A stretch of DNA of 64,000 nt. It comes from Planctomycetota bacterium (GTDB taxonomy: Bacteria; Planctomycetota; Planctomycetia; Gemmatales; Gemmataceae). The stretch is taken from positions 1 through 64,000 of the forward strand of contig JACPPF010000071.1 of NCBI GenBank assembly GCA_016191165.1, given 5' to 3'. The position numbers and the translations under genes are program-made. The notes under the pieces were generated by a model that saw nothing but the letters and a program-made list of their open reading frames with translations, was not told the DNA's origin and made no database searches. This document shows positions 36,234-62,820 of the stretch, one piece after another (the first letter of the stretch is position 1; each line of letters opens with the position of its first letter).

Positions 36234-37250
36234 CTACCCCCCGATCGCGTGCATGGTCCGTTGCGGCTTCACGAACCGAGCGGTATTGATTTCGTGCCCT
36301 TCCCATTTCCGCCAAATGTTTTCACGTACGAGCGCGGCAATTTCGCTGGTCGCGGCGCCGCCACGCAAGAGCGGCTTCAAATCGACTTCGTCCAGAGCGA
36401 ACAGACAATTTCTGAGTTTTCCCTCGGCCGTCAAGCGCACGCGATTGCAAGTCATGCAGAACGGGCGTGAAACCGAGGCGATAATGCCTACGCGGCCGGC
36501 GCCATCAAGGTAATTGAACTCCATGGCCGGGGCCTTGGGATCGTAGTTCGTGGCCGGCACGAGCGGCGCGACGTGGGTTTCGATCTGCTCCAGGATTTCA
36601 TGGGCGAAGTAAACCTTTTCACGTTCCCAGTTATCGGCGCCAATTGGCATGTATTCGATGAAGCGCATCTCCAGGCCATGCTCGCGCGCGAAACGCGCCA
36701 GCGGCACGACCTCGCCATCGGAGATGCCGCGGATGGTGACGGCATTGATCTTCACGGGATCGAAGCCAGCCTTCTTGGCGGCATGAATGCCCGCGAGAAC
36801 CTTTTCAAGGCCATCGCGCCGCGCCAGCTGACGAAAGCGATCCGGATCGAGCGCGTCGAGACTGATGTTGATGCGGCGCAAACCCGCGTCGAAAAGCGAC
36901 TGGGCCATGGGCGCGAGCAGAATGCCGTTGGTCGTCAGGCCGATGTCCTTGATGCCCGGAACTTCACGCAACATCGCAATCAAACGGGCCAAATCGCGGC
37001 GCAGCAGCGGTTCGCCGCCGGTCAGGCGAATCTTGTCGATGCCCAGCGGAGCGACAATTTCGACAAAGCGATGGATCTCCTCGAAAGTGAGCAACTCCTT
37101 TTTGTCCATGAACACGACGTCTTCGGCCATGCAGTAAGTGCAGCGCAGGTTGCACCGGTCCGTCACACTGATGCGCAAGTTGTTATGGATACGCCCGAAC
37201 GTGTCGCTGAGCGGACCGTCAAGCGTTGGCAAACTAACGAGGTCGTTCAT
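36234..37250 (-). CDS. moaA: GTP 3',8-cyclase MoaA
   Basis: A 338-residue radical SAM enzyme that starts molybdenum cofactor biosynthesis from GTP. The radical SAM motif is CNLRCTYC preceded by ISVTDR (C-x3-C-x2-C), then RLTGGEPLLRRDL; the second cluster ligands are in CMTCNRVRL and NCLFAL; the C-terminal AIGG pair is present. The start is at 37250. moaE and moaD follow the same direction upstream, so this is a moa cluster, interrupted by no other gene up to the GlcD-GlcF fusion. Confidence 0.96.
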   Translation of the reverse strand: MNDLVSLPTLDGPLSDTFGRIHNNLRISVTDRCNLRCTYCMAEDVVFMDKKELLTFEEIHRFVEIVAPLGIDKIRLTGGEPLLRRDLARLIAMLREVPGIKDIGLTTNGILLAPMAQSLFDAGLRRINISLDALDPDRFRQLARRDGLEKVLAGIHAAKKAGFDPVKINAVTIRGISDGEVVPLARFAREHGLEMRFIEYMPIGADNWEREKVYFAHEILEQIETHVAPLVPATNYDPKAPAMEFNYLDGAGRVGIIASVSRPFCMTCNRVRLTAEGKLRNCLFALDEVDLKPLLRGGAATSEIAALVRENIWRKWEGHEINTARFVKPQRTMHAIGG

Positions 37251-37298
37251 GGTTTCTTTTCGTTGAAAGCCCAGGGACGGCCGTCCCCGCAGTCTCGT

Positions 37299-37712
37299 TC
37301 AGGCGCCCGGATGCACCCATTCGGTGGAGCCATCGGCCCAGTTTTCCTTCTTCCAGATCGGCACCAGTTCCTTGAGCCGATCGATGGCGTGGCGGCAGGC
37401 GTCGAACGCCTGGGCGCGATGCGGACAGCTAATCGCCACCGCGACGCTGACGTCGCCGACCTCCAGATGCCCAAGCCGATGTTCGAGGATCAACTCGCCC
37501 ACGGGCCAGCGCTGGCGCGTCTCGGCTTCGATCTCGGCCATCTTTTTTTCGGCCATGGCCGGATAGGCATCATAATCAAGCGCGACGGTCACGCGCTCGC
37601 CAGTAAGGTCACGCACGGTCCCCAGAAAGAGGACCACCGCCCCGCAGTGGCGCCGGCGAACCTCCTCGGTCAAGGCATGACCGTCAATTACATCGCGCGT
37701 CAAGCGAATCAT
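37299..37712 (-). CDS. moaE: Molybdopterin synthase large subunit MoaE
   Basis: A 137-residue subunit that inserts sulfur into precursor Z together with MoaD. Signature parts are GAVVLFLGTVRD, LDYDAYPAMAEKKM, LEHRLGHLEVGDVSVAVAI, PHRAQAFDACRHAID and IWKKE (catalytic Lys). The start at 37712 fits the family; the frame opens at 37787. It lies between moaA and moaD. Confidence 0.95.
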   Translation of the reverse strand: MIRLTRDVIDGHALTEEVRRRHCGAVVLFLGTVRDLTGERVTVALDYDAYPAMAEKKMAEIEAETRQRWPVGELILEHRLGHLEVGDVSVAVAISCPHRAQAFDACRHAIDRLKELVPIWKKENWADGSTEWVHPGA

Positions 37713-37793
37713 GTTGGCTTCCGTCTTCGTTTGGCGTTCGCGCGGTGCCCATTGAAGCCTTGCGTGCGCCCGCTTGAGACCCATCACGCCATC

Positions 37794-38027
37794 TTACCCC
37801 CCACTGACCGGAGGCAAAAGGGCAACCTCGGCGCCGGCCGGAATCGGCGTCAAATCGTCCGCGAATTCATTATTGACCGCAAGGGCCGATTTTTCCACCA
37901 GGCCGCTCAAGTGGCGATAGCGCTCCTTCAAGCGAGCGCGCACCTCCCCCACGGTTGCGGCCGACTCGATGTCAATCCAATCCGCGCCAACCAAATCGCG
38001 GGCGCGGGCAAAAAGCAACACCTTCAT
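37794..38027 (-). CDS. moaD: Molybdopterin synthase sulfur carrier MoaD
   Basis: A 77-residue ubiquitin-like protein ending in the diagnostic Gly-Gly (ALLPPVSGG), which carries the thiocarboxylate. The start ATG at 38027 overlaps the stop codon of the GlcD-GlcF gene as TGATG. The wider frame to 38525 is a shadow of that gene. MoaE follows 81 bases later. Confidence 0.92.
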   Translation of the reverse strand: MKVLLFARARDLVGADWIDIESAATVGEVRARLKERYRHLSGLVEKSALAVNNEFADDLTPIPAGAEVALLPPVSGG

Positions 38028-40954
38028 CACAACACCAATTCCTTGAGCGGCTCGCGCAGCCGATCGGCAACCTCGGGCATCAAACCATAGGCCAGTGCCA
38101 GGTATTGGACCGGATGCAGCGTTCGCTTGCCGGCGCCATCCTCCATTTGCACCCGGCAACTGCTGCATTCGGTCGATCCGAACAGATGGCGCGGTCGTTG
38201 CAACTCCGTCAACATCGCCGCGCCGGCTTGCCGGGAAAGCTGATAGTTGGCCGATTTCAAACCAAAGGTCCCCGCCATGCCGGAGCAACCGACGTCGATG
38301 GTGCTCACGCGAATTTGCGGGATCAACTTGAGGAGTTGCGGGCCCGCCACGCTTGATTTGAGCGCCTTGACGTGGCAGGGCACATGGTGGCCCAGGCTGA
38401 TAGCGATCGGCTTGAAATCCGTACGAAGCCGGCCCTGCTGATGGAGCCCGAGGAGGAAACAGGTCAACTCGACCGCGCGCTCGGCGACGATGCGGGCGTC
38501 GTCGTCGGCCTGGAGGTCCACGCAATCCTCTTTCAGCATGAGGGCGGCGCTCGGCTCGGAACAGACGATCGGCCAGCCGGCGCGGGCGGGTTCGACCAGC
38601 GAGCGAAGGTTTCGTTGAGTGATTTCCCTCGCGGTTTCGATGTCGCCATGCACGAGAGCTTCCATACCGCTGCTGCCTTGGGACGGCGGAATGAACACGT
38701 CATAACCCTGATGGTGCAGAACGGCCACCGTCGCCTCCGCAATCTGCGGCTCGACATAGTTGGCATACAGATCGACGAAGTACGTCACGACCGGTTTCGC
38801 GCCATTCGGCTTGCCCGTCCAGCCGCGCCGCTTGGCTCGCGCCATGAAGGATCGGGCCGCCATTCTCGGCAGGCGGCGCTCGCGGGACAGCCCAAATAGC
38901 TTGTCGAGAAACCAGCGGGAAGCTCGGCCACGAAGGGAAAGGTTGGCCAGGAAGGAAATGGCACTGCCCAGGCGTAGGGCCTGTTCCATCTGGGCGAAGA
39001 ACCAATCGCCGCGACTCAGCCCGTGCTCGGCGACGTTGGCTGCCTTCGCCTCCAGCATGAGCCTGGGAATGTTGAGATGAGCCGGGCACTCCAGCGCGCA
39101 CATCTTGCATTGAACGCACAGGTTGGCCACCGCGCGCACTGCCTCGGAGTTGAGTTGCAGGCCATTCGCCTGATGCTGCAGAAGGTCGCGCAAAAGGTTT
39201 GCCTTGGCGCGCGGCGTCGCCGCCTCGTCATGCTGGGCGCGAAAGATGGGGCACATGCGCTGCCCGGGTAATTCGGTGCGGCACTGGCCGCAGCCATTGC
39301 AATGATTCGTTTCCAACGCCAGGCTCTCAGGCTGCCAGTTAAGCGCCAGCGGCATGGCAACTCTTTCCGCGACCGCCGCGCCGCGCAGGGTTCGGGTATC
39401 CGGATTGGGGTCGGGATCGACGATCTTGCCCGGGTTGAAGACGTTCTTGGGGTCGAAGATCGCCTTGACCTGGCGCATGACAGGGTAAAGCGCGCCGACC
39501 TGCCTGGCGACCCAGGGCGTCCGCGCCAGGCCCGTGCCGTGCTGGCTGCTGACGGTCCCGCCCAGCTCAATCGCCAGGGAATGCACCATTTCCGCGATGG
39601 CCCAGAGTCGCGACACCTCCTCCGGCTTCTGCAAATCCAAAAACGGCCTGACGTGGACCTGGCCGGCGCCGGCGTGGACGAGGAAACTTGCCGTCGTTTC
39701 GTGTTCTTGCAAGATATCCTGTGCACGCCGGAGGTACTCATGCAAAACATCCGGAGGAACGCCAACGTCCTCGATGCACGCAACTGGTTGTGCGCCGCCC
39801 CGCCTGCCGTACAGACTGGGCAACGCGATTTCGCGAATCTGCCAGACCGCGGCCAGGTGATCCGAATCGATTGCGAGTGTGGTTTGAATTACCGACGAGT
39901 CCTGGTGCATTCGGTTGCAAAGGCCCTGGGCCGGCCGATGAGCCTCCTCGGATGATTCGGCTTCAAATTCAATGAAGAGGACCGCTTCTGCCGCCGGCGA
40001 GATCAGAGTGCTTCCTTCCACCCCATCGGCGCCGCGCGCGAGCGTGAGCAAGCGGCGATCGATCAGTTCACACGCCACCGGTCCAGTTTCGAGGACGGTC
40101 GGCACCAGGGCGACCGCTCGCTGCACGCTTGTGACATTGATTAGAACTAGACAGCGACCGGTCGGGACAGGGACCGTATTCAACGTCATTTCCGTGAACA
40201 GGGCCAGGGTTCCCTCCGAGCCGATCAGCAAACGAGGTAAATCCAGATTGGCTGGTCGAAGGACTCCGTCGAGTTGGTAGCCAAGGCGATCAAATGGCGC
40301 GCGCCTCCTGGCAGCGGCGATCTGTTCCTGGCTTTGTTCCAGGAGTACGTTGAGAGCGACACCGATGTCATGAAGATGCGAGGCCTCCGCCGGCTCGATT
40401 TGAATGTCGTAGCTTCGCGTGAGCGCAACGGCATCACCGTTGTCGAGAACGGCGCGCACCGCCTGGACGTGATCCCGGGTCGTGCCGTAGCGGATGGCCC
40501 GAGCCCCGGATGCATTCGTGGCGAGCATTCCACCCAGGGTGCACACGGCGCCGCTGGCCGGGTCAGGGGCGAATCGTCGCCCCGTCTCCGCCAGCCGGGA
40601 ATTCAGCGCGGCATGGGTGACGCCCGGTTGCACGCGAGCCGTGTCCGAGCCGACGTGGACGATTCCGCGAAAATACTTGCTGAGATCGACGATTAACCCA
40701 GGCCCAAGCGATTCGCCCGCCAAACCCGTGCCGGCGCCACGCGCGATCAAGGGAATGCCGTTCGCCTGCGCGTAGCGAACGAGCAGGCATGCGTCCTCCT
40801 CGTCGCGCGGCGCCGCCACGCCGATCGGCTTGACCTGAAAAATACTCGCGTCCGTGCTGTAGAGACGGCGCGTGATCTCGTCGAAGCGCAGGTCGCCGCG
40901 AAAGAAGCCGTGCAAATCATCTTGAAGGCGACGCAGTTCCACGAGATTGCCCAC
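38027..40954 (-). CDS. FAD-linked oxidase fused to an iron-sulfur, CCG-domain protein (GlcD-GlcF type)
   Basis: A 975-residue fusion. Residues about 45-470 are an FAD_binding_4 plus FAD-oxidase_C module: VAAPRDEEDACLLVRYAQ, PLIARGAGTGLAGES, GGMLATNASGARAIRYGT and HGTGLARTPWV. From about 540 there is a ferredoxin-type part with CNGCGQC...MCP and CVQCKMCALECP, which bind two [4Fe-4S] clusters, then a cysteine-rich CCG-like tail. The reaction is probably oxidation of D-lactate, glycolate or another 2-hydroxyacid with electrons going to the quinone pool. The start is GTG at 40954. Placed head-on to moaD by overlap; D-lactate dehydrogenase 2 and glycolate oxidase are both possible. Confidence 0.92.
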   Translation of the reverse strand: MGNLVELRRLQDDLHGFFRGDLRFDEITRRLYSTDASIFQVKPIGVAAPRDEEDACLLVRYAQANGIPLIARGAGTGLAGESLGPGLIVDLSKYFRGIVHVGSDTARVQPGVTHAALNSRLAETGRRFAPDPASGAVCTLGGMLATNASGARAIRYGTTRDHVQAVRAVLDNGDAVALTRSYDIQIEPAEASHLHDIGVALNVLLEQSQEQIAAARRRAPFDRLGYQLDGVLRPANLDLPRLLIGSEGTLALFTEMTLNTVPVPTGRCLVLINVTSVQRAVALVPTVLETGPVACELIDRRLLTLARGADGVEGSTLISPAAEAVLFIEFEAESSEEAHRPAQGLCNRMHQDSSVIQTTLAIDSDHLAAVWQIREIALPSLYGRRGGAQPVACIEDVGVPPDVLHEYLRRAQDILQEHETTASFLVHAGAGQVHVRPFLDLQKPEEVSRLWAIAEMVHSLAIELGGTVSSQHGTGLARTPWVARQVGALYPVMRQVKAIFDPKNVFNPGKIVDPDPNPDTRTLRGAAVAERVAMPLALNWQPESLALETNHCNGCGQCRTELPGQRMCPIFRAQHDEAATPRAKANLLRDLLQHQANGLQLNSEAVRAVANLCVQCKMCALECPAHLNIPRLMLEAKAANVAEHGLSRGDWFFAQMEQALRLGSAISFLANLSLRGRASRWFLDKLFGLSRERRLPRMAARSFMARAKRRGWTGKPNGAKPVVTYFVDLYANYVEPQIAEATVAVLHHQGYDVFIPPSQGSSGMEALVHGDIETAREITQRNLRSLVEPARAGWPIVCSEPSAALMLKEDCVDLQADDDARIVAERAVELTCFLLGLHQQGRLRTDFKPIAISLGHHVPCHVKALKSSVAGPQLLKLIPQIRVSTIDVGCSGMAGTFGLKSANYQLSRQAGAAMLTELQRPRHLFGSTECSSCRVQMEDGAGKRTLHPVQYLALAYGLMPEVADRLREPLKELVL

Positions 40955-59021: not shown

Positions 59022-59225
59022 TTAGACCTCCGTAGGGGCAACCAGATAACCGGGACGGCGCGTCAGCAGTTCGCTCCCTCACCAGGCTTGCTAGTGGGGG
59101 ACCCGTCTCCCCTGCCGCTTGTGGGGCCCGGCTCGCTTCGGTGAGAATTCAAAAAAAATCGGCCCGCGCGCCCAGTCCGTGGGTACTTTATGGATAGACA
59201 AGGTCAGCGGGGAAGGAATGACGCC

Positions 59226-61205
59226 ATGACGCAATCCTCGAATGCCGCAGTCATGCGGCAAATCCGCATGATGGTGGCAACGCGGCCATCCGAGGAGGAA
59301 TCCGATTTCCACCTGCTCGCCCGTTTCTCGGCGGAGCGTGACGAAGCTGCATTCGCGGCTCTGGTGCATCGGCACGGTGGAATGGTCTTCGCCGTATGCC
59401 AGAGCGTACTGGGTCGACAGCACGACGCCGAGGACGTTTTCCAGGCGACGTTCCTGGTGCTCGCCCGGCAGGGCCATACCATTCGCAAACAGGAAGCGGT
59501 CGCCAGCTGGCTGCACCGGGTGGCCTATCGGCTGGCGCTCAAGGCCCGGCTGCAGGCGCGGCGGCGGCAGGCGCGGGAAAACGCCGTCGCCATTGCCGAC
59601 TCCGCGACATCCGCGATTGATGTCAATACGCGCGAGATGCGGGAAGTGGTGCATGAGGAGTTGAATCGCCTGCCCGAGAAATATCGGACCGCGATCCTCC
59701 TTTGTTACCTCGAGGGCAGAACTCGCGATGAAGCCGCCCAGCGACTCGGCGTCAGCCCTGGCGCGTTCAAGAAATGCCTGGAGCGGGGCCGAAATCTCCT
59801 GGGCAGCCGGCTCCTGGGACGCGGCCTTGCACCCGCCGCGCTCCTGGCCAATCTGCTGACTGAAATCCAGGCCGAGGCGGCCGTTTCCACTTCATTGACT
59901 CACGGCACCGCGCGGGCGGCCGTGGCTTTCGCCACGGGTTGCGGAACCAACGCTGCGACCACTACCGCCGCCCTGATGCTTGCCAACGGAGCGATTCGAA
60001 CCATGACGATTACCAAATTCGCCTGGACCCTACTCGCGCTAATCCTGGTGTGCGCCTCCGGCGCCGGGCTGGGCCTGGCAGCCTACCAGGGGTTCGCGGG
60101 TGATTTAACCAATCGGCCCCACGGGGTCATCGGCCTGCCAGGCGCCCAGGGGGAAAAGCCCGACCAGAAAACTCCAGGCAAGAAAACTGACCTGGAGCGC
60201 CTCATCGGCACCTGGCGCTTCGCCAGCGGCGCCGCCCGGGGCAAGGAAACGCCCAAGGAATTCATCGCCCTGGCTCGCCTCACCTTCACCAGGGACGGAA
60301 AGACCTTGATGACCATCACCGAAGAGACCAAGACCGGCCAGTTCAAAATCGTCGCGCCGGGCAAGATTGATCTCTCCCTGGGTGGCAACGACACCGTCAC
60401 CCCAGCGATCTACCGATTTGAAGGCGACAACCGCCTCATCCTCTGTGGCGGCGACGGCCCCAAGAGTGAGCGGCCTAGCCAATTCAAGGGAGACAAAGAC
60501 TCCACCCAAGTCTTGCTCATCCTCATCCGCGCCAAAACCGGCGAAGAAAAACCGACGAAGCAAGACCTCGCCAAGTTCAAGGGCGGACTCGCCCAGGTCC
60601 AGGAAGCCGCCGCTCGCGCTCAAAGCGCGAACAACCTCAAACAAATCGGCCTGGCAATGCACAACTACTTGGCTGTCTACAAGTCGTTTCCGCGCCACGC
60701 CATTTACAGCAAGGACGGCAAGACCCCGCTCCTGAGCTGGCGCGTGGCAATCCTGCCGTTCATTGAACAGGATAAGTTGTACAAGGAGTTCAAACTCGAC
60801 GAGGCCTGGAATAGTGCTCACAACAAGAAGCTGATCGCCAAGATGCCCAAGATCTACGAACCCCTCGGCGCAGGCAAGAAAGGGGTCGGCCTGACCCATT
60901 ACCAGGTCTTCACCGGTCTGAATACCATGTTCAACGGCGCCAAGGAGCTGGGGCCTCGCGACGTCACCGACGGCACCTCGAACACCATCCTGGCAATTGA
61001 AGCAAAGCAAGCGGTCGTGTGGTCGCAGCCCGCCGATCTGGTTCTGCCCAAGGATGAAACCAAACTACCGCCCCTGGGCGGGCTGTTCAAGGCGGGCATG
61101 CACGTCCTGATGGCCGACGGCTCGGTGCGGTTCCGTTCGGCAACAACGCCTGCCGCCACCATACGAGCCGCAGTGACGCCGGCGGGAAATGAACCTCCGG
61201 AATAA
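59226..61205 (+). CDS. ECF sigma factor fused through a membrane helix to TIGR03067-like and DUF1559-like regions
   Basis: A 659-residue protein. The N-terminus is an ECF sigma factor: region 2 (DEAAFAALVHRHGGMVFAVCQSV, HDAEDVFQATFLVLA), region 4 (LPEKYRTAILLCYLEGRTRDEAAQRLGV). Residues about 264-286 are a membrane helix (TITKFAWTLLALILVCASGA). Then a region like TIGR03067 (LIGTWRFASGAARGKETPKEF, about 325-430) and one like DUF1559 (NLKQIGLAMHNYLAVYKSFP and GLFKAGMHVLMADGSVRFRS, about 466-640) follow and should face the periplasm. The start at 59226 follows GGGGAAGGA. No anti-sigma gene is adjacent; sensing may occur within the one protein (inference). Confidence 0.9.
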   Translation: MTQSSNAAVMRQIRMMVATRPSEEESDFHLLARFSAERDEAAFAALVHRHGGMVFAVCQSVLGRQHDAEDVFQATFLVLARQGHTIRKQEAVASWLHRVAYRLALKARLQARRRQARENAVAIADSATSAIDVNTREMREVVHEELNRLPEKYRTAILLCYLEGRTRDEAAQRLGVSPGAFKKCLERGRNLLGSRLLGRGLAPAALLANLLTEIQAEAAVSTSLTHGTARAAVAFATGCGTNAATTTAALMLANGAIRTMTITKFAWTLLALILVCASGAGLGLAAYQGFAGDLTNRPHGVIGLPGAQGEKPDQKTPGKKTDLERLIGTWRFASGAARGKETPKEFIALARLTFTRDGKTLMTITEETKTGQFKIVAPGKIDLSLGGNDTVTPAIYRFEGDNRLILCGGDGPKSERPSQFKGDKDSTQVLLILIRAKTGEEKPTKQDLAKFKGGLAQVQEAAARAQSANNLKQIGLAMHNYLAVYKSFPRHAIYSKDGKTPLLSWRVAILPFIEQDKLYKEFKLDEAWNSAHNKKLIAKMPKIYEPLGAGKKGVGLTHYQVFTGLNTMFNGAKELGPRDVTDGTSNTILAIEAKQAVVWSQPADLVLPKDETKLPPLGGLFKAGMHVLMADGSVRFRSATTPAATIRAAVTPAGNEPPE

Positions 61206-62307: not shown

Positions 62308-62568
62308 TCACTTGTCGTAGTGATACCGGCAAGCGATCCCAATCAATGTGTCTTCCGATACCGTGTAGACCAAACGGTGCTCATCGTTGATTCGACGTGA
62401 CCAGTATCCGGACAAGTCGCCCTTGAGCGGTTCCGGCTTGCCGACCCCTTCAAACGGCGGCCGGATAATGTCTTGCACAAGCTGATTGAGTCGCTTGAGA
62501 AGCTTGCGATCATGCTTGACAAACCACTGGTAGTCATCCCAGGCCGATGGCGTAATGGTCAGGTTCAT
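62308..62568 (-). CDS. yoeB: YoeB-type toxin of a type II toxin-antitoxin pair
   Basis: An 86-residue ribosome-dependent mRNA interferase. It begins WDDYQWFVKHDRKLLKRLNQL, then PFEGVGKPEPLKGDLSGYWSRRI and ends HRLVYTVSEDTLIGIACRYHYDK; the catalytic Glu, Arg and His-Tyr are retained. The start codon overlaps the antitoxin stop as ATGA. The protein looks intact. Confidence 0.92.
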   Translation of the reverse strand: MNLTITPSAWDDYQWFVKHDRKLLKRLNQLVQDIIRPPFEGVGKPEPLKGDLSGYWSRRINDEHRLVYTVSEDTLIGIACRYHYDK

Positions 62569-62820
62569 TCCGGAATCAACTCCCGTTGCCGGCCTTTACC
62601 TGCCTTCGCTTCCGCAACGGACCGCCGCAGATGAGCCGCATTGGCCGCGCTTGACAATTGATAGATCGTCTCCCGCCACGAATTGAATTCGTCCAGTGGC
62701 ATGACCACAACCTGGCCGCCCTCGTCCGTGACGACAATGCGGGGCTCCGCATCGGCAAGAACCTGTTCGACAAGTGCTTGTTAGATTCCGCTTGGCGTCT
62801 TTCAGCGTGATCGCTTGCAT
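62565..62820 (-). pseudogene. yefM: YefM/Phd-type antitoxin with a single-base frameshift
   Basis: Reading leftward from the ATG at 62820 gives MQAITLKDAKRNLT, after which one extra A (AA at 62779-62778 in place of A) shifts the frame. Removing it restores ALVEQVLADAEPRIVVTDEG and a typical YefM end that stops at 62565, overlapping the toxin start. The reconstructed protein has 84 residues. GAGGGG lies before the ATG. As read, no antitoxin of normal length is made. Confidence 0.82.

Follow-up and report, generated by a model that had tools for sequence, protein, structure and literature searches.

A membrane-tethered, ECF57-like sigma factor gene of a planctomycete probably encodes two nested in-frame proteins

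Planctomycetes possess many sigma factors that are linked through a helix to outside domains and have no anti-sigma gene, which raises the question of how these regulators are controlled. One such gene lies within a 64,000-nt stretch of DNA from a Planctomycetota bacterium of the Gemmataceae, hereafter referred to as the window. It appears to code for an ECF57-like, membrane-tethered sigma factor and, probably, for two nested in-frame proteins, a reading to which we assign a probability of roughly 0.6. What is new about the gene is a putative internal start signal at the nucleotide level, not its domain architecture. This conserved start-like signal within the ORF had gone unnoticed in a sequence-only reading of the window.

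Positions 59226 to 61205 of the plus strand form a single uninterrupted ORF of 659 codons. While an alternative in-frame ATG exists upstream, at 59190, the putative ribosome-binding site GGAAGGA and the alignment of homologs favour the start at 59226. The features of the full-length gene are as follows.

59211..59217, plus strand: GGAAGGA, the likely ribosome-binding site for the full-length protein, from sequence (anti-SD energy −7.0 kcal/mol)
59226..61205, plus strand: full-length ORF (659 aa), ECF sigma–linker–helix–TIGR03067–DUF1559
59274..59813, plus strand: ECF sigma domain, residues ~17–196 (Pfam), with Cys58 and Cys160 inside
59814..60002, plus strand: hydrophobic linker, residues 197–259 (family alignment)
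60018..60101, plus strand: predicted transmembrane helix, residues 265–292, N-in by the positive-inside rule
60183..60488, plus strand: TIGR03067 domain, a Planctomycetes domain (NCBIfam)
60600..61145, plus strand: DUF1559/SBP_bac_10 domain, including its H-X9-DG end and lacking the N-terminal prepilin helix (Pfam, NCBIfam)

Pfam placed Sigma70_r2 at residues 46–113 and Sigma70_r4_2 at residues 140–190, both above cut-off, and returned no match for sigma region 3; regions 2 and 4 without region 3 are the hallmark of an ECF (group 4 sigma-70) factor. The protein further matched TIGR02937 (73.9 bits), and a structure search related its sigma part to the solved structures of SigE and SigW. Behind the helix, TIGR03067 scored 45–46.9 bits (NCBIfam cut-off, 40.15), and DUF1559/SBP_bac_10, beginning at residue 459, reached 122.7 bits (Pfam cut-off, 23.3) and terminated in the H-X9-DG end described by TIGR04294 (NCBIfam). 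Pfam, NCBIfam and homologs hence confirm the earlier description of a complete ECF sigma factor continuing through one helix into TIGR03067 and DUF1559 within one ORF. AlphaFold modeled the N-terminal 300 residues with a pLDDT of 52.8, sigma4 alone being confident, and the C-terminal module with a pLDDT of 32.8; the latter matched none of the solved structures. Conservation of the linker (59814–60002; ~60 residues between sigma4 and helix) is moderate across the family. DUF1559 (SBP_bac_10) is otherwise known from prepilin-like Planctomycetes proteins, which share the globular domain and the H-X9-DG end. Unlike these, the window protein has no N_methyl match in Pfam and no visible N-terminal prepilin cleavage/methylation motif, and its anchor is the sigma-linked helix ~170 residues upstream.

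The same-genus ortholog aligns with 54% identity across residues 22–655, and another genome of the family harbors two homologs (46% and 40%) spanning nearly the full length, plus a further one covering residues 8–574 at 36%. Because the ortholog and homologs span nearly the whole protein, the sigma–sensor fusion is not an assembly artefact. Third-position changes exceed second-position changes 2.25-fold in the sigma half and 2.8-fold in the DUF1559 half, implying protein-level selection on both. A wider scan of genome contigs returned no full-length relative. The bacterium's own genome contains a sigma-less paralog of the TIGR03067–DUF1559 module (L004), in which a zinc-ribbon-like N-terminus is followed by one helix, two TIGR03067 domains and DUF1559.

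To place the protein within its family, we compared 67 relatives. The window protein has one helix only, 28 uncharged residues (265–292) preceded by the positively charged ...IRTMTITK; a helix was present in 66/67 relatives, and in 54/67 the stretch before it was more positively charged than the stretch after it. This charge asymmetry is consistent with an N-in/C-out orientation of the window protein and its relatives, and supports the earlier proposal that signal and promoter domains reside on one membrane-spanning polypeptide. The ECF factors detected in Tuwongella immobilis came from Triton- or SDS-soluble fractions (PMC8567305), consistent with membrane association. The C-terminal tails are swappable: TIGR03067 was found in 10, WD40 in 8 and DUF1559 in 6 of 64 relatives, the remainder being others or unrecognised.

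A conserved cysteine in each of sigma2 and sigma4 is the reported mark of planctomycete ECF57 factors (PMC8999054). The window protein has both, and among 65 relatives Cys58 is conserved in 95% and Cys160 in 97%. Assigned by these signature cysteines, and not by a group-model score, it is classed as an ECF57-like planctomycete paralog. Like ECF57, it joins an ECF sigma factor to a long C-terminal extension, with no adjacent anti-sigma, and WD40-tailed members rank among its closest relatives. It differs in its module, TIGR03067–DUF1559 in place of the WD40-like extension (absent by Pfam), which is prevalent though not universal in ECF57; the published summary of the group mentions no internal start (PMC8999054). 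In phylum-wide relatives (L203–L231), the Cys160 position is often His or Arg, and the first cysteine is mostly kept.

The sigma–helix–extension layout is already known, from ECF57 with its C-terminal extensions, membrane-fused ECF52 and IutY (PMC8999054), and the window gene is a further example. ECF52 (SCO4117 of Streptomyces) and ECF48/ECF53 likewise join sigma to an extracytoplasmic domain by a membrane helix. These groups are described as having an anti-sigma-like zinc-finger domain that separates sigma from the helix, whereas a Pfam search of the window protein detected neither zf-HC2 nor any other anti-sigma family. IutY of Pseudomonas putida (ECF243) also fuses sigma to a membrane-spanning C-terminal part; there, unlike here, the fused part is the anti-sigma of an iron–siderophore system, and activation proceeds through proteolysis by Prc and RseP (PMC8999054).

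The earlier statement that no anti-sigma factor is encoded nearby held: no anti-sigma-like gene adjoins 59226–61205, the neighbours being a VOC/glyoxalase-fold protein, a formamidase-family protein and a YoeB-type toxin. Around the same-genus ortholog, the sigma gene itself is all that matches the window. Genome G032 encodes a full-length homolog of the protein (L064) beside genes that share 62–80% identity with those at 36236–40954 of the window. Upstream of the YoeB-type toxin ORF (62308–62820, minus strand), an antitoxin-like gene appears to be in two pieces, its YefM-like start (MQAITLKDAKRNL) in one frame and its C-terminal part, also YefM-like (VMPLDEFNSWRETIYQLSS), in another; this reflects either a broken gene or a sequencing error.

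Codon alignment of the family revealed AAGGAGT about 10 nt upstream of an in-frame ATG, just before the helix. In most relatives, a Shine-Dalgarno (SD)-like AAGGAG and an ATG are found at this place inside the sigma ORF. Codon 255, a glycine, is GGA in 34 of 38 genes (5.3 expected; p = 6e-24), which is the strongest synonymous bias among 232 column/residue classes tested; the next column reaches p = 6e-9, that is, 15 orders of magnitude weaker. The preference recurred in 57 held-out members (GGA in 28/36 vs a background of 15%, p = 1e-16), whose independence is incomplete as they share genomes with the first set. Anti-SD pairing of −6 kcal/mol or stronger was predicted ahead of 85% of family ATGs, against 18% of 434 in-frame ATGs elsewhere; the pairing also surpassed that of amino-acid-preserving shuffles (z = −4.3).

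Further features accompany the motif. Codons −9 to −2 show synonymous A/T enrichment, confined to members with both SD and ATG. Predicted mRNA structure over codons −15 to +4 is 2.8 kcal/mol (8–10 SE) weaker than in amino-acid-preserving shuffles, with no clear change against shuffles at −60 to −16 and +15 to +44. The base at −1 is C in 77% of family ATGs, which resembles natural starts (53–64%) and not other ATGs (40%). As sequence signals, the SD, the A/T bias, the low structure and the C at −1 are the marks of a translation initiation region, and at the family level both SD and start codon are under nucleotide-level selection, as in same-frame internal starts.

The motif may have a purpose other than initiation: were the full-length tethered sigma factor the sole product, an SD-like element could slow the ribosome for sigma folding or for handover to SRP. 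Pausing at SD-like sites close to membrane helices has been suggested for E. coli, and the fixed position directly before the helix would suit it, as would a spacing that is long for initiation: nearer relatives mostly have 10 nt between SD and ATG, while the spacing at natural starts of these genomes has its peak at 6–9 nt, with 10 nt enriched only 2.3-fold. However, in a phylum-wide set, where 15/26 relatives carry the site, 11 of the 15 have spacings of 5–8 nt, attained through a shifted ATG or a shifted SD, which brings distant relatives to normal initiation spacing. Pausing, moreover, would not call for the ATG, the C at −1 or the weakened structure that the family shows. Twenty-four serine/threonine kinases (STPKs) from the same genome, each with a helix behind its kinase domain, have no SD–ATG site. 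We thus regard pausing as unlikely.

On the STPK control, a general feature of membrane helices was rejected as well. A rare-codon (GGA) or protein effect was rejected because the SD is also found shifted to other phases, where it encodes different amino acids (AGG GAG GTA, AAG GAG GTG, CAG GAG GTC, GAT GAG GTG). A programmed frameshift was likewise rejected on inspection: no conserved slippery sequence follows the motif, and the zero frame is open through the helix.

The site is missing in 60 of 148 relatives, and its presence showed no association with C-tail length (p = 0.48). SD and ATG were coupled by Fisher test (p = 4e-5; held-out set, p = 0.0026), a coupling that lost significance once corrected for the tree, in which independent pairs were few. 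In genome G001, of the same genus, an in-frame TAG interrupts a sigma relative (L139) in region 4. Past this stop, and in the same frame, follow GGAG, ATG and an intact exported-type protein, which we take to be DUF1501-like; the stop is possibly a sequencing error.

In the window gene, the corresponding features are the following.

59988..59991, plus strand: internal Shine-Dalgarno-like GGAG (codon 255 GGA plus the next base)
60003..60005, plus strand: putative internal start ATG, Met260 (family codon alignment and statistics)
60003..61205, plus strand: putative short product, 400 aa

Taken alone, the signal in this gene is modest. Its GGAG pairs with −5.8 kcal/mol, a strength equalled in 7.8% of shuffles, and the surrounding region has unusually little structure (p = 0.03); both other paralogs examined in the same genome have no SD. 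The putative short product begins MTITKFAWTLLALILVC, resembling the N-terminus of a signal peptide or anchor. As for the earlier view of the fusion as the only product, the fusion itself stood, and the family-wide evidence points to a second, sigma-less one.

How the sigma factor would leave the membrane bears on two more alternatives. According to the first, the protein is a one-component membrane sigma factor, freed like IutY and as proposed for ECF52 by regulated intramembrane proteolysis, with a site-1 cut outside and a site-2 cut within the helix, and the motif has no function today. The IutY precedent (PMC8999054), the single helix with its Gly-rich, helix-weakening residues and the several M50 genes of the site-2-protease family (seven such loci in the genome) are in line with this, yet M50 proteases are near-universal and hence little informative, and Pfam found no zinc anti-sigma domain. 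Above all, a functionless motif would not survive at synonymous sites that are saturated between paralogs of ~40% identity, which renders this alternative rather improbable as a whole. Its release step is compatible with a dual start and, given the seven M50-type loci, plausible. According to the second, signal peptidase would cut at the helix, an internal and cleavable signal sequence, and so split the outside module from a sigma–helix stub, leaving no stable fusion. Many members do have AxA-like sites after the helix (including ...HQALAADP), but their number (59/122) lies ~2 SD above that of shuffled segments (49.5 ± 4.5) and a relaxed form of the motif is not in excess, leaving this the case we deem very improbable.

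We therefore return to two nested products. The full-length protein is predicted to hold sigma in the cytoplasm, the helix in the inner membrane and TIGR03067–DUF1559 outside. Initiation at the internal SD and the ATG at 60003, which we infer, would yield a shorter protein with the same helix and outside module and without sigma, the helix becoming an N-terminal signal anchor or signal peptide. The outside module would most likely sense a cell-envelope signal, and the tethered sigma factor may work from the membrane or, more likely, be released by regulated proteolysis near the helix. The sigma-less form would have partners or ligands in common with the long form and would thereby set the ratio or threshold of the latter; alternatively, it may itself be the exported product.

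There is precedent for such an arrangement in the long and short isoforms of SpaO and in other bacterial genes with same-frame internal starts, where one ORF gives two in-frame products, the short one being the C-terminal part, and where, in SpaO, the short isoform can act together with the long one (PMC13059759). Translation was shown experimentally for SpaO, whereas the window gene is known from sequence signals. The literature searched contained no case of a sigma factor with a same-frame internal start.

Extended to the phylum, a tentative proposal and one we hold with less than even confidence, the conserved internal start before the helix would define a planctomycete-wide dual-coding class, in which a tethered sigma–sensor is accompanied by a sigma-less sensor copy that tunes or antagonises sigma, so that one gene would be regulator, sensor and its own modulator. 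For sigma factors of this kind, the conserved internal start offers a testable control point, namely the isoform ratio. If true, these genes carry annotations for a single product although they have two, and domain swapping would exchange exported modules behind a portable cassette of ribosome site and signal anchor.
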